Source: Tetramitus jugosus
Taxonomy: Eukaryota; Heterolobosea; Eutetramitea; Acrasida; Vahlkampfiidae
NCBI GenBank assembly: GCA_937625935.1
Contig: OW569358.1
Span: forward strand, 372,001-436,000
Length of the DNA stretch: 64,000 nt
Direction of reading: 5' to 3'
Both the position numbers and the translations under genes were made by a program. The notes beneath the pieces were generated by a model that was not told the origin of the DNA, searched no databases, and saw nothing but the letters and a program-made list of their open reading frames with translations. Position 1 is the first letter of the stretch, and every line of letters starts with the position of its first letter. Positions 1 to 33,420 of the stretch are shown here, piece by piece.

Positions 1-770
1 GGTATTTTCCAGAGAAATATTTGTGCCAATACTTGGTCGAAGCTCATGGAGAACATGAAACAGATTGTGTGACGTATACATTTGATCGTTCCAATGGTGT
101 TCGTTCCTTGACCAAGAGTTACGAAGCAATCATAACGAAACATAATATTGATGCTGTTATTATCGTAGATGGAGGCACAGATTCACTAATGAGAGGTGAT
201 GAAAAGGAGTTAGGATCACCAGAAGAAGATGCTTTGACGATTGCATCAGTGTACAATATATCAACAGACGTGTTGCCCATGGACAATAGGTTCTTAATGG
301 CAATAGGGTTCGGCGTCGATACGTTCCACGGCGTCAACCACTATCACTTTTTGGAGAATGTAGCTTCAATTGCAAGAAAGTATCCAAATGGTTACTTGGG
401 TGCTTTTTCCCTATTGAAGCAGATGCAGGAGTTTCAGCACTTCAAGGATGCCTGTAATTTCTCATTCTCTAAAATGAGTCAGTACCCATCAATTGTCTCG
501 AGCTCTATTATATCTGCTGTTGAAGGACATTATGGAGACTACCATGCCATACCAGACAGAACAAGTGGCAGCAAGTTGTACATTCACCCCTTGATGTCAA
601 TGTATTGGACTTTCCGTGTTGCGCCAGTCTTCACCGAAAGCACCTACATGTTCAAGTTGTTGGAAACAGACAATAGAGATGAGGTGAACTATTGCTTGAA
701 CAAGTATCGAACAAACCTGCAAAAGAACCAGCCTCATCTCATCAGACAACCTCAGAACCTGCCAGTCTAA
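1..770 (+). CDS. DUF1152-like protein, 5' partial
   Basis: The reading frame is open from the left edge and ends at TAA 768-770, so the start lies outside the window; at least 255 residues are visible. The segment VDGGTDSLMRGDE, followed closely by GSPEEDALT, resembles the central conserved region of the DUF1152 family (Rossmann-like proteins of unknown activity found in bacteria, plants and protists). A later stretch, GYLGAFSL, and the repeated short helices also fit that family. No signal peptide or membrane segment is visible in the part seen. The family assignment rests on recalled motif resemblance only, and no biochemical role can be given. The next gene starts 196 bases downstream on the same strand, and the spacer is A-rich with no ORF. 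Confidence 0.6.
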   Translation, partial: YFPEKYLCQYLVEAHGEHETDCVTYTFDRSNGVRSLTKSYEAIITKHNIDAVIIVDGGTDSLMRGDEKELGSPEEDALTIASVYNISTDVLPMDNRFLMAIGFGVDTFHGVNHYHFLENVASIARKYPNGYLGAFSLLKQMQEFQHFKDACNFSFSKMSQYPSIVSSSIISAVEGHYGDYHAIPDRTSGSKLYIHPLMSMYWTFRVAPVFTESTYMFKLLETDNRDEVNYCLNKYRTNLQKNQPHLIRQPQNLPV

Positions 771-966: not shown

Positions 967-3583
967 ATGACAGTCGGTGTGATGCATATACAGATGGCTG
1001 AGTGTTCAGATGATGAACTACCACCATCACTTCATGAAATTGAAGAAGAAACCATTCCTACCAAGTACCCTCACTTGAAGAAGCAACAAAAACAGGGAAT
1101 ATATGACAATCAATTGCGTTATTTGTGTGGAGGGCGATTCATATCGAAACCAATCTTTTTGAACAATGGTCAACTGTTTGCTATTGCTCAATCCACCAAT
1201 GTCAAAGTATACTCTGCACAGACTGGTCAATTTGTTGCGAATTTGCCACATGAAAAAGTGTTGACCGTTTTGGCTCATCCAGACAATGCAAAACAGGTAA
1301 TTATTCTCTCATTCTCTCGCCATCAACAAATGGATGATGATTCTATCGTGTGTGTTTTGTGTGTTTTGTGTGAAAATGATGATATCTGACAACAATATAT
1401 TTTTCTTTCGCTCGCAACAACAACAACAACAACAACAGGTATTCACAGCTTCAACAGATGGTTCCATTAAGCTTTGGAACATTATGAATGAGAACCTAGT
1501 GTCAGAGTATGACTTGGAGATGAATGGAGTGACTCACTTTGCTATATCATGTGTCGACAAAATCAATCCTTTGCTTGTTCGTGGTTTCGTTGCTGTCAAT
1601 CAATCTTCGACCGCTTCTTCATCATTCTATCAGATTGGTCTCTACACGGATGAGACAAACAAGGTGACTATTCAAAAATCGTCAAAAGTGACCGATATTC
1701 GCAGCGAATTCTCTCAATTCACATTGGCCCAGGATCACTCCATGATTCTCGTCTCTGATCGCAACAAATTGAACGTTTACGATTTACAAGATGACTTTTA
1801 TTCGAACAATAGGTCAAAGAGAGCAAACAACATTACTCACAAGCACATTATCACATGTGTCGCACATAACGCAAAGAGAAATTTGATTGCATTTGGTGAT
1901 GAGAGAGGTGCCATCATGGTGTATCACCCTAGTGGAGCTCACAGCTTACTCCATTGGCATCCTGTTGTCGTTAACAGTTTGGACTTTAGTTCCGATGGCA
2001 ATTACATGTACTCTGTTGCTAATGATGGTGTCATGTGCATGTGGAACATTTCAAAGGGATCTCGCATGAATCATTTCCCATGTGGACAAGCATTGAATCA
2101 TGTGACTGTGAGTCCAAAGCAAGACTCTTGCTTGATTGTTTCTGCTGGCAATCAAGTATTGAAGGTTGATTTGCATGGAAACAAGGACAAGTTTGATGTT
2201 CAAGGAATCTTGGCTCACAACAATCCAATGAGTGTCCAATTGCGTCTCGCTGTTCATCCAACAAGTGGCGAAGTCTCCATCACTGGATCCAATATTTTGC
2301 AATGGTACGATATTGAGAACGAGAAGGAAACAAAGAGAAACATTATTCAATATCAAGCGCTGACCTACAACCCATCTAGATATGAAAAAACCAAACCATT
2401 GACACATGTGATTACACACATTGCTGTGAGCGGAACAGGACATAGAGTCGCCACTTGCGAAAAAATCAATGATCAAACTTGTTTAAAGTTTTGGCATCTC
2501 ACCAAATACAAGTGCGAAACACTCAGCGTAGTCGACACTCCTCACGGAGCAGACATTACGAGTTGTGCCTTTAATCAATCTGCACGGGCTCAAAATATGT
2601 GCGTGACAACATCTCTTGACGGAAATGCAAAGCTCTGGAATAGATCAGGTGAAATGGAACATCACGTTTGCTATGCAATTATTGACTATCGGAGATTGAA
2701 GCCATGGTGTGCAGTGTTTTCTATTGATGGAAACTCTGTGATTATTGGTTTCGAGCATGTGATTACCGTGTGGGATGCAAAATCCGCCACTCTTGTGCTC
2801 GCTGAGGAATTTACTGATGGGCAAGGCATTCGTTCTGTTCACTGTCTCGATGATCACCACATTGTCGTGCAAACCAGAAACTGTGTTTATATTTATTCTT
2901 TAGTGAAGGCAAAGATTATTTGGAGCATTGCTCTGGGAGACACGATAACATTATTCGCATTCCATCAGAACAGTCGGCAGATGGCATTCAAATTATTAGA
3001 ACAATCCTCCGTGCATATTCTGTCCATACCAAGAGATGTTTCTCAAACAAAGCGTACAGCTGTTTCTGCTTGTGAGGTGTTAGTGAAGGCAATCAACTTC
3101 TCTACAAAGGGTCAACTTTTGGTTCTGACAGATGCATTCGACATCTTAACATTAGGAGGCAAGACTGAAGAGGAAAAGGAGTTGGCCAAAGTCCAAATCT
3201 CGGATAGTGCTATGGATATTGACATGGTGGATGAGAAACCAACCCAAAAGTTGTTGAATCCAGATACGGTTCAAACAACTGCCTTCGATCCAGAGTTAGG
3301 AATGAACGCATGGAAGGACATCTTTGGTGGCCATTCATCTCATCAGTTGATGTCCATGAACGACAGCTTCGGAACATACATGAACACTTTCTTGCTCAAG
3401 TCTGACCTCCACAAGCAAGCTCTCAAGAAAGAATCTGAACAAGCATCTCAAAAGGAAAAGACTGCCTTTGACTACTTCAAGAATGCAGCAGCAGTTTCTC
3501 ATCAAACTGCAACTGTTCCAACCGAGAACGAGCTATCGAAAGACATAGAGGCACTGCTCAAGAAGTTTGCAACCACCTTATAA
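967..3583 (+). CDS. WD40-repeat protein, WDR75/Utp17-like (SSU processome)
   Basis: Two exons, 967-1296 and 1439-3583, give 824 residues. The join is phase 0 (Gln | Val) and restores the WD repeat VFTASTDGSIKLWN. Several WD repeats are clear (IKLWN, VMCMWN, AKLWN, ITVWD). The order of an early blade, many degenerate blades and a helical tail with a GGHSSHQL segment resembles WDR75 (yeast Nan1/Utp17), a tUTP/UtpA subunit that binds pre-18S rRNA transcripts in the nucleolus. The 142-nt intron opens with GTAATT and ends in a (CAA)n run whose last CAG is the acceptor. That intron is A/T-rich and would shift the frame if retained. Another large WD40 protein of ribosome biogenesis is possible. WD40 identity is certain; the orthologue is likely. 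Confidence 0.8.
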
Positions 3584-30010: not shown

Positions 30011-30187
30011 CGATCTTTTGTCCAATCAGAATGCATCATTCAATCAAAATGAGCAATGTCGCCTGATCTGGATTGGAAAACATCGCACACCCTCTCAAAT
30101 TTCTTTATCCTATCCCACCCAAAACCTCCACCCTCTGAAAAAACCAAATTAAAACACGTGTGTAACACTTCTTCCAACAATCAAACA

Positions 30188-31486
30188 ATGACTAGCGAAC
30201 AACCTCAACAACAACAAGAACAAGAACAACCTCAGCTAAGAAAACCATCTTCATGGTCCAACATTAGTGCCAGCAAGAGCTCCATGCGCACATCCAATCC
30301 CATTCGTCTCATTGTCGATCAATTGGACCCTTCACAAGCCAACAAGAGCAAGCCACTCATTCCATTGAGCATTGGTGATCCAACAGTGTTTGGTAATTTG
30401 TCTACTCATGAATTTGTTCTTCAATCCATGGTCGAATCAGTCAACCATGGTGGTTACAATGGTTATGCTCATGCATGTGGTTACAAGGAAGCCAGAAGTG
30501 CAATTGCTGCAAAGTACTCGCAAAAATTTGAAAATCAAGATGGTGCATTTACGGATGAAGATGTCATTTTGGCGAGTGGATGCTCTGGTGCACTGGACAT
30601 GTGCTTGGATGTGTTGGCCAATGAAGGAGACAATATTTTGATCCCTACACCTGGATTTTCACTGTACAAGACACTGTGCGATCACAAGGGCATTGAAACG
30701 TATTTTTATCCGTTGATTGCGGAGAATGATTGGGAAGCGGATTTGAGTGCAATGAAAGAGTTGATTAATGAGAGAACGAGAGCCATTTTGATTAATAATC
30801 CTTCGAATCCATGTGGAAGTGTGTTTACAAGAAGACACATTATGGATATTTTGAAGGTGGCTGAAGAGTATTGTCTGCCTATTATTGCTGATGAGATTTA
30901 TGCGGATATGACGTTTGAGAAGGGTACGTTTGTGCCAGTGTATCAATTGACGAATACTGTGCCTGTTTTGACTGTTGGTGGTATTGCAAAGCAGTATTTG
31001 GTTCCTGGATGGAGAGTCGGATGGATTGTCGTTCACGATAGACAGGGATACTTTAAGGAGGTGAGACAGGGCCTAGGAAGATTGGCCACATTGATTCTAG
31101 GACCAAACACCATTGTTCAGGGAGCGTTGCCAAAGATTTTGAACGAGACTCCACAACAATTTTACGATGATTTAAACAATAGTCTCAAGGAGAGTGCTGA
31201 TTATACGTTTGAGCGAATTTCAAAGATTCGTGGACTGAATGTCATTCGACCAAGAGGAGCCATGTATTGCATGGTTGGTATTGAAGTTGGCAAATTCGGT
31301 GCTGAGATTACTGATGACGTCAGTTTCTCCAAGTTGTTGCTGCAAGAGGAATCAGTGTTTGTCTTACCTGGCCAATGCTTTAGAATGCCAAACTTCTTCA
31401 GAATCGTCATTTGTCCACCAAAGGCAAAGCTCGAGGAAGCATACGATCGCTTGGAACAATTTTGTATGCGTCGATATCAAGAATAA
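30188..31486 (+). CDS. Tyrosine/aromatic aminotransferase (PLP class I)
   Basis: A single exon of 432 residues, start ATG 30188 just before a Gln/Glu-rich leader. The fold-type I motifs are in order: GYNGYAHACGYKEARSAIA, ILASGCSGALDMCL, ILINNPSNPCGSVF (PLP-contacting Asn), IADEIYADM (Asp to the pyridine N) and GGIAKQYLVPGWRVGW, with the Schiff-base Lys at about residue 267. The last pattern, A-K-x-x-x-V-P-G-W-R, is typical of tyrosine aminotransferase. It would transfer the amino group of tyrosine or phenylalanine to 2-oxoglutarate in the cytosol. There is no targeting signal. A related plant-type aromatic or alanine-type specificity is possible. It converges with the thioredoxin reductase gene. 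Confidence 0.9.
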   Translation: MTSEQPQQQQEQEQPQLRKPSSWSNISASKSSMRTSNPIRLIVDQLDPSQANKSKPLIPLSIGDPTVFGNLSTHEFVLQSMVESVNHGGYNGYAHACGYKEARSAIAAKYSQKFENQDGAFTDEDVILASGCSGALDMCLDVLANEGDNILIPTPGFSLYKTLCDHKGIETYFYPLIAENDWEADLSAMKELINERTRAILINNPSNPCGSVFTRRHIMDILKVAEEYCLPIIADEIYADMTFEKGTFVPVYQLTNTVPVLTVGGIAKQYLVPGWRVGWIVVHDRQGYFKEVRQGLGRLATLILGPNTIVQGALPKILNETPQQFYDDLNNSLKESADYTFERISKIRGLNVIRPRGAMYCMVGIEVGKFGAEITDDVSFSKLLLQEESVFVLPGQCFRMPNFFRIVICPPKAKLEEAYDRLEQFCMRRYQE

Positions 31487-31578
31487 AACTTAGGGAGCTT
31501 TTTCAAAATTCAATTTATTGCTTGTGCTCACCGTTTCTGATTGATGCCTGCCTTCAGAGGCCAGTCCAAAGCAAAGTT

Positions 31579-31663
31579 GTTACCACTATTGTCAGAGCGT
31601 ATTCATTGTCTGCGGTATTGGTTGAGACGAGGGTTTATGAATACGTTCGTCATGTGCGGTAAC
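31579..31663 (-). promoter_or_regulatory. Candidate SECIS element of thioredoxin reductase
   Basis: On the minus strand, 78 bases after the stop codon, helix I pairs GTTACCGCAC with GTGGTAAC. The SECIS core follows as ATGA (31650-31653) opposite TGAC (31591-31594). Helix II is the perfect CGTATTCAT/ATGAATACG, and the apical region starts with AAA. GTCT and AGAC inside the loop can form the extra short stem of a type II SECIS. The order ATGA, stem, AA, stem, GA is the eukaryotic consensus. The fold was worked out by hand and not scored. Confidence 0.7.
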
Positions 31664-31740
31664 TTTCACCTCGAACACATCAATAACATACTAAAGCTTG
31701 CACAATCCATTCACCTGCTGGACATTTCAGACCAGCAGGT

Positions 31741-33420
31741 TTAACCTCAGCATGATGTAGACTCGGTAACCCCATACACGAGTCCAGTCATTTCTTCGGC
31801 TGTTGTTGGATGAATACCAACAGTATCATCGAAATCTTGCTTTGTTGGATTGAATCTCATTGCGATACCGACTCCTTGAGTCACTTCACCAGCATTTGGT
31901 CCACAGTAATGGAATCCGAGCACTCTTTCATCATTATCCTTTGTACAAATGAGTTTTATGAAGGCTTGATCTGTCGATTTTCTTGGACCGAGACTGTACT
32001 CCAATACATAGTAACTCTTCTTGTAAACCTTGATATTGTCCTCTCCAAACTTTTTCACTGCGTCCTCCTCAGACAAGCCACATGCACCATATTCCAATGG
32101 AGTGAAAACAGTTGTTGGAACAAGATTAAAGTCCATCTTCTTTGTACTTCCTGCATAAAATCTCTGAACAAGCAAACGACCAGTCTTAATAGCCACAGGT
32201 GTCAATTCTAATCCACCGGCAATAATATCACCGATTGCATAAATGTGTGGTACAGATGTCTGTTGATACTCGTTTGTTAAAATCTTCTTGTCCTTCATCT
32301 TCATGTCAAACATGTCAAGATGCAGTGCTTTCACATCAGCATATCTTCCAATTGCAAAAAATACAGTATCGAACAGTTCACTAGACTCTTCCTTGGTAAA
32401 TGCGTGGGTGTATGTAACTTGCAACTTTCCATCGTCCAATTTTTGAATCGCCTTCAAATTATAAGGCTGCAAGAAGCGAGTTCCATGCTGTTGCATATGA
32501 ATGGTAATCTTGTCTGCACATTCACCGTCGAAACCTCTGAGAATATACTCTCTGACCATCACAGTAGTGTCACATCCAACACCGTGCAAGAATCCAGCAC
32601 ATTCCAATGCGACATAGGCAGCACCAACAACCAATGTCTTACCAGGGTTCTTCTTCAAATAAAAAATATCGTCGCTAGTGATTCCGTGCTCATAGCCAGG
32701 CACCCACTCTGGTAGAGAGGGACGACCACCAACAGCAATCACAAATCGACGAGCAGAGAACCTTTGTTTCTTCTCAAACTTTGTTCCCATCTTGAATGTA
32801 GCTTCTACAGTGTGCTTGTCCACAAACACAGCATATGCATTGTGATACTTGACACCACTCTCTGCCAAATCACCCAAATAACCAAAGTTGATACTCTTAA
32901 TGTATTGACCAACATTGGCAATCATTGTGGACCAATCATGATTCACATGATGATTGGATGACTCACCACCAGATGGCAAACTCCATCCAAAGTTTGCACT
33001 CTCTTCCACCTTCTCTCCATAGATGGAAGCAGTGTGCATGAGCTTTTTTGGAATGCAACCAACGTTGACACATGTTCCACCGAGACCCCATTTGGTTCCC
33101 TTTGGAGATGGCTTCACAAAGTCAAAACAGGCCACTCTTTCTCTACCGTCCTCATTCTCACCATACTTGTTCTTGAGAAGCTTTGCGGCTTCTTTGGCAC
33201 AGGCTAGACCACCTGATCCTCCACCAATAACAATGAGATCATAATCAAATCCGTGATTTGTCTCTGGTAGTTCAGTGTCTTGGGTTCGGTGTCACGACAG
33301 ATGGAGAAGTAGGTGGTGTCAGTTTCAACAAATCATGAAAAAAACATTAAAGAAGATTTTTTTTGCTTTCTTTAGCTTTTAATATTTGAATCACTTACCA
33401 ATCATATTTGTGTTGGACAT
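31741..33420 (-). CDS. Thioredoxin reductase, selenoprotein with C-terminal Cys-Sec-Gly
   Basis: Two exons, 33399-33420 and 31741-33278, give 519 residues including Sec. The 120-nt intron (GTAAGT...CCAAG) splits a codon and joins MSNTNMI to DTELPETNHGFDYDLIV. Domains: FAD loop DLIVIGGGSGGLA, redox disulfide GGTCVNVGCIPKK, NADPH-binding GKTLVVGAAYVALECAGF and the dimer domain with GIHPTTAEE. After ESTSC the frame meets TGA (31747-31749), then GGT and TAA, so the end reads Ser-Cys-Sec-Gly. That is the known C-terminal redox centre of high-Mr thioredoxin reductases, and a SECIS-like fold follows. Read as a plain stop, the enzyme would lack the centre that passes electrons to thioredoxin. No targeting signal is evident in this model. 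Confidence 0.88.

Follow-up and report, generated by a model that had tools for sequence, protein, structure and literature searches.

The principal feature of the window, by which we mean the whole 64-kb stretch of DNA that was analysed, is a thioredoxin reductase (TrxR) gene at 33420-31741 on the minus strand, running from an ATG at 33420 to a TAA with one inferred intron. Exon 1 (33399..33420; ATG TCC AAC ACA AAT ATG ATT G) was read from the sequence with its splice site inferred, and the 120-nt GT...AG intron (33279..33398) was deduced from the reading frame and from homology to Naegleria gruberi. Joining exons 1 and 2 gives MSNTNMIDTELPETNHGFDYD, the counterpart of which in N. gruberi is VIDTQEPETDHGYDYD. 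Exon 2 (31741..33278, up to the TAA) encodes an FAD/NAD oxidoreductase with the domains Pyr_redox_2 and Pyr_redox_dim (FAD/NAD and dimerisation) and the motifs CVNVGC and HPTTAEE, which we take to have their usual roles. The assignment is supported by a score of 601.7 bits against the TIGR01438 profile of the TrxR/TGR family (cut-off 475.85) and by the match to PDB 3ean (thioredoxin reductase 1), which covers residues 6-496 at E 2.9e-148.

The frame ends at 31755-31741 with TCA-TGC-TGA-GGT-TAA, that is, Ser-Cys-(TGA)-Gly-stop. The TGA (31747..31749) is the penultimate codon, placed as in high-Mr TrxR and predicted to encode selenocysteine (Sec; SCUG), and the TAA (31741..31743) is assigned as the true stop, giving a predicted protein of 519 residues with Sec counted. 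The sequence-only reading had recognized this ending as the Sec context of high-Mr TrxRs, and both the codons and the family score bear it out. High-Mr TrxRs are defined by the CVNVGC disulfide centre together with a C-terminal Cys-Sec or Cys-Cys pair. The window enzyme carries CVNVGC and the SC-TGA-G end, and the existence of its redox pair depends on decoding of the TGA as Sec. The gene is almost certainly, judging from its sequence, that of a high-Mr TrxR selenoprotein of a heterolobosean-like protist. Such an enzyme is expected and ordinary for the lineage, its kind having already been described as a predicted selenoprotein in Naegleria and Acanthamoeba, and the value of recognizing it as a selenoprotein lies in giving the correct end to an enzyme that databases truncate.

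The closest named TrxR proteins were those of N. gruberi (58% identity), N. lovaniensis (57%), Willaertia magna (56%) and Acrasis kona (56%), which makes a heterolobosean host the most likely. All 12 relatives examined end at Cys, four of them (P0002-P0005, 75-99% identity) with ...STSC and the others with GC. Among 212 protein records, the query included, 184 end GC, 9 end SC and 19 end otherwise, the query being one of the 19. It had been claimed that an annotation treating TGA as a stop would lose the catalytic end; the ends of the 12 relatives and of two further Naegleria proteins agree with this, as Cys ends fit such an annotation, but alone they do not separate a Sec codon from a real stop. 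N. gruberi and N. lovaniensis each have, in addition, a second TrxR ending GC, from which it is deduced that the TrxR duplication probably predates the split from Naegleria. The prokaryote collection contained a single matching Vibrio locus (38% identity), and no match was found in the viral collection.

The 3' UTR contains a SECIS (31579..31663, minus strand) composed of helix I, an internal loop, the AUGA/UGAC quartet, helix II and an apical AAA, assigned by folding and by a descriptor. The core AUGA (31650..31653), the core UGAC (31591..31594) and the apical AAA (31634..31636) were read directly. Each strand of helix II is 12 nt long, and its pairing includes a single A-C mismatch and an uninterrupted core of 9 bp (CGTATTCAT/ATGAATACG); the outer helix I has 8 bp (GTTACCGC/GTGGTAAC, 31663-31656 with 31586-31579). 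In the minimum-free-energy fold a 12-bp basal extension lies below the SECIS (31564..31676; 31676-31665 with 31575-31564), and AATAAA at 31514..31519 downstream, by sequence reading only, is a possible poly(A) signal. With its AUGAC/UGAC, AAA and 8-bp helix I, the element agrees with the eukaryotic SECIS definitions in the available parts of PMC11227280 and PMC3316567. The ATGA begins 87 nt past the TAA and 93 nt past the UGA, the latter falling within the range of 51-111 nt given in the available text of PMC3316567 for the minimum UGA-SECIS spacing in Dio1. The SECIS order proposed earlier (ATGA, a stem with a perfect 9-bp core, AA, GA and a second flanking helix) was found as described, but its placement within 80 bases was too close, the ATGA lying 87 nt after the TAA. 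A convergent gene, aminotransferase-like by eye, occupies 30056-31486 on the plus strand. Its stop is about 255 bases from that of TrxR, so the SECIS lies within a short shared intergenic stretch.

Folding of the 121-nt SECIS region gave -32.9 kcal/mol, equalled by 2/200 dinucleotide shuffles (z -2.82). The descriptor used (ATGA, helix with at most one mismatch, AA, GA), whose register was set after an initial version matched nothing and is partly post hoc, found one site on both strands of the 64-kb window, namely the TrxR SECIS, whereas 60 shuffles yielded 0.1 sites on average (a site in 6/60). Genome-wide (26,348,746 bases, 56 contigs), the pattern ATGACN{11,13}AAN{18,46}TGACAAT, derived from the TrxR site and the glutathione peroxidase-type (GPx) site described below and holding no pairing rule, had 116 matches (57 + 59) against 22 + 12 for the reversed control. 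Helix II pairing was scored in 96 of 100 listed matches, and TrxR ranked first (11/12 pairs), GPx second (11/13) and the next at 9/12; this third-best match (C18:35202) falls within an open frame of 637 codons and was dismissed as a chance hit. Rfam models gave zero matches to the TrxR SECIS region up to E = 1, and a genome-wide SECIS_1 search had zero matches up to E = 10, the GPx SECIS being likewise missed. This silence bears on the sensitivity of one model, and a SECIS_1 match is no defining feature. On the scoring of the element against background, then, the shuffles, the lone descriptor site and the top rank among 96 are favourable, and Rfam SECIS_1 is silent.

The sequence-only reading held that a Sec TrxR implies the whole Sec machinery in this organism and named tRNA-Sec, SBP2, eEFSec and SPS2 as genes to look for. 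The first three and a NifS-SelD fusion were located, together with SepSecS and a low-scoring PSTK-like kinase, in a first-look search in which exons were read separately. The tRNA-Sec scored 78.2 bits (cut-off 47) and has the anticodon TCA. SepSecS scored 476.9 bits (cut-off 224.85) across two frames with an apparent intron between them. The sole SelD match found in the genome (366.4 bits, cut-off 125) is fused behind a NifS-like cysteine desulfurase (L005:64-2556; C8, around 195825-196766), the NifS-like part of which scored 367 bits where the model cut-off is 530.75; the GCGCK of the SelD part suggests, by eye, a Cys form. For eEFSec, the domains euk_SelB_III and eEFSec_4th and a match to PDB eEFSec 5izk at 1.1e-124 were found, while its score against the bacterial selB model (201) was under the cut-off (242). 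SBP2 is a 627-residue frame in which residues 334-596 align with 520-783 of PDB SBP2 7zjw_B (3.6e-35), the only PDB sequence matched up to E = 1. The PSTK-like kinase scored 68.5 bits to TIGR03575, far under the NCBIfam cut-off of 382.35, and KTI12 is a distinct gene. The PSTK-like frame (L007, C22) ends in TGA and is the sole one to do so among the genes whose stops were checked; this small sample hints that the genome may disfavour TGA as a stop.

Three more genes likewise have an in-frame TGA where Sec would be expected; they encode GPx, a second TrxR (TrxR2; the window enzyme is TrxR1 where the two are compared) and a SelW-like protein. GPx (C32; L021 minus strand, UGA near 1530) reads VNVASK-U-GL, has an intron and carries a 3' UTR SECIS (L021 995-937) with its ATGA 67 nt past the TAA. 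This stretch folds like its shuffles (z +0.21), and the best fold nonetheless includes the SECIS helices. The SelW-like gene (C44, L019:1507-1762) reads EYCTSUGY, which shares its frame with the C-terminal part of Rdx, and its SECIS candidate, found by hand (L019 at 2009), has ATGA 244 nt past the stop. TrxR2 (C14, L057:663-2510 and downstream) is 48% identical to the window TrxR, has a long N-terminal stretch and ends GGA TGC TGA GGC TAG, with ATGAC...TGAC 90 nt past the UGA; the two TrxRs have GCACATGACGA and TCTGACAA in common around the SECIS core. The TrxR2 SECIS is absent from its minimum-free-energy fold (z +0.74). A covariance model was built from the TrxR and GPx SECIS only, that of SelW being left out because MAFFT misaligned it. 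The model refinds its training sites at 1.8e-8 and 3.1e-8, by construction, and in SelW it did not recover the site, a spurious place scoring 8.3 bits against 3.6 for the true one. Among the four Sec genes, SelW and TrxR2 have weak SECIS, which are treated as candidates only. MsrA was considered as a further Sec gene and rejected, as no stop lies within its match. Downstream of TrxR2 is a tRNA-Trp gene (L057:2781-2852, minus), past which (within 2781-3501) the sequence reads by eye like a retroelement reverse transcriptase. A low-Mr bacterial-type TrxR (L055:673-1731, C41; TIGR01292, 383 bits) coexists with the two Sec-type TrxRs.

The UGA-adjacent hairpins matter more than the Sec TrxR itself and are the part worth following. 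Directly after the true stop of TrxR1, in the 3' UTR, lies a perfect 9-bp hairpin with a 10-nt loop (31713..31740, minus; strands 31740-31732/31721-31713), found by a helix scan and by comparison with TrxR2. It begins 6 nt past the UGA and is a candidate selenocysteine redefinition element (SRE), agreeing with the stem-loop described for SREs in being stable, of 9 bp and 6 nt downstream of the UGA. It is one of 15 perfect 9-bp hairpins listed in the window, 9 of which belong to one poly-T tract. When the 60 nt that follow the Sec UGA in the spliced sequence were searched for a helix starting at 4-9 nt with nine or more stacked pairs, one was found for TrxR1 (6 nt, -19.7 kcal/mol), TrxR2 (6 nt, -16.8) and SelW (7 nt, -21.0), while no such helix was found for GPx (-4.4). 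This rule selects 3/4 Sec UGAs against 42/3169 other window TGAs (about 1%), and 116/9517 TGAs in 56 other loci, some of them overlapping. A stricter earlier rule (-19 kcal/mol or lower, at least 8 pairs, helix at 5-9 nt) selects 4/3170 window TGAs, TrxR1 included. Both counting rules were framed after the hairpins had been seen.

It is quite possible, if somewhat short of an even prospect, that the hairpin is unrelated to Sec insertion, being some other 3' UTR structure or a product of chance. The absence of a UGA-adjacent hairpin in GPx and the post hoc choice of criterion favour this, as does the frequency of the helix at the ends of open frames 150 codons or longer, whether or not these are real genes: 8/174 with TrxR1 counted and 7/173 (about 4%) without it. 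The hairpin statistics are in keeping with it as well: the 72-nt TrxR1 hairpin fold was matched by 9/200 shuffles (z -2.17, modest), and 33/500 column shuffles of the TrxR1/TrxR2 pair reached the observed value, a weak control with two sequences. The enrichment at Sec UGAs argues against an unrelated hairpin, and so does the fixed-register comparison, which is less open to the post hoc objection than the counting rules. When the TrxR1 register (6..33) was applied to TrxR2, 9/9 pairs formed with 4 two-sided changes and 12/28 bases identical, whereas sliding the partner by 1-3 columns left 39-56% paired with 0-1 two-sided changes. Only 2/3173 window TGAs, TrxR1 being one, pair at all nine positions in this register.

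A bacterial-type SECIS, the hallmarks of which are given in the available part of PMC8704476 as a bulged U in the upper stem and an unpaired GU in the loop, was considered for the hairpin and rejected: the stems of TrxR1 and TrxR2 are without a bulged U and the TrxR2 loop, AACACA, is without GU, although GU is present at the end of the loop of TrxR1. A sigma-70/terminator scan gave no match. The UGA-adjacent hairpin has the anatomy of an SRE, and a stimulating role is suggested with less confidence than Sec insertion. We tentatively propose, as close to an even call without quite reaching one, that heterolobosean selenoprotein mRNAs carry, besides the 3' UTR SECIS, a structure-conserved stem-loop 6-7 nt past the Sec UGA, and that this stem-loop is ancient. 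Since the TrxR duplication is seemingly common to Naegleria, the local stem-loop would be old, in a lineage far from animals.

Two other readings concern the TGA itself. That it is an ordinary stop, the enzyme ending ...TSC and the SECIS-like fold having arisen by chance, is very improbable. The GC or SC ends in 193/212 records are as expected from truncation or a real stop alike, and Rfam is silent on SECIS in both region and genome. An ordinary stop would, however, leave one Cys in the tail and no counterpart of the family's second redox residue, and it is at odds with the presence of Sec machinery and of three other genes with an in-frame TGA; a chance fold is at odds with a SECIS that is alone in 64 kb and, with that of GPx, is the best paired of 96 scored (116 genome matches). 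Decoding of the TGA as an ordinary amino acid, by general reassignment or leaky readthrough, is hardly credible: Sec-independent readthrough can be driven by an SRE (available text of PMC4561486), and the stops of 12 other genes include 11 TAA or TAG and a sole TGA with TAG directly after it, but the genome has a tRNA-Sec with the TCA anticodon and a Sec route, a SECIS is present, the TGAs coincide in four proteins with sites known to carry Sec, and the machinery frames, up to 831 codons, are without internal TGA, contrary to what general reassignment would lead one to expect.

For the preferred reading, Sec at the penultimate codon, the gene, its UGA context, the SECIS fold, the machinery genes and the further Sec genes are all present in the DNA. 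SBP2, bound to the 3' UTR SECIS, would recruit eEFSec with Sec-tRNA to a ribosome positioned at the penultimate UGA, and decoding of this codon would yield a C-terminal Cys-Sec-Gly. Through this tail, electrons would then reach thioredoxin from the FAD/CVNVGC centre. Both the SBP2/eEFSec recruitment and the Cys-Sec-Gly electron relay are established knowledge for the TrxR family; Sec insertion and enzyme activity in the present protein are predictions from sequence. With lower confidence, the hairpin 6 nt past the UGA may act as an SRE, disfavouring termination.

Mammalian TXNRD1, which we take PDB 3ean and 1h6v to represent, belongs to the same family as the window TrxR over residues 6-496 (E 2.9e-148). 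Its tail is Gly-Cys-Sec-Gly, compared with Ser-Cys-Sec-Gly here. The Naegleria TrxR, 57-58% identical and ending at Cys in the database, likewise has Gly-Cys before the UGA instead of Ser-Cys. The Naegleria Sec machinery and a predicted Sec-TrxR have been published (da Silva et al. 2013, as cited in the available parts of PMC8038987 and PMC4561486). The available text of PMC4561486 describes NifS-SPS fusions in both N. gruberi and Acanthamoeba and for N. gruberi adds a methyltransferase-SPS2, in contrast to the one SelD match here. Acanthamoeba castellanii TrxR-L, as presented in the available part of PMC8038987, resembles the window TrxR in its UGA-GGT-UAA end, 3' UTR SECIS and coexisting low-Mr TrxR, a coexistence described there as unusual and reported for Acanthamoeba and Naegleria. 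Its SECIS lies 282-355 nt past the UAA, compared with an ATGA at 87 nt here, and that part makes no mention of a UGA-adjacent hairpin. It is a predicted selenoprotein, and the authors state that direct proof of Sec is missing.

SREs are stem-loops just 3' of the Sec UGA that favour recoding, with SELENON as the best studied case beside SELENOT and SPS2 (PMC8704476 and PMC4561486, available parts). The genes for which these texts describe them are from mammals and other metazoans, and the age of SREs and any link to the bacterial SECIS are left open there; descent from the bacterial SECIS is a speculation of PMC4561486. Literature searches on SREs generally, with protists and with TrxR found none for a protist TrxR in titles or abstract openings, which does not establish absence from print. 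The TrxR1 hairpin and the SELENON-type SRE are alike in being stem-loops close 3' of a Sec UGA, present besides a SECIS. Unlike the SELENON type, the candidate here belongs to a protist TrxR and lies in the 3' UTR just past the true stop. If true, an ancient protist stem-loop would bear on the proposed descent of SREs from bacterial SECIS (PMC4561486), and four Sec genes in one protist make both the age of SREs and that link testable.
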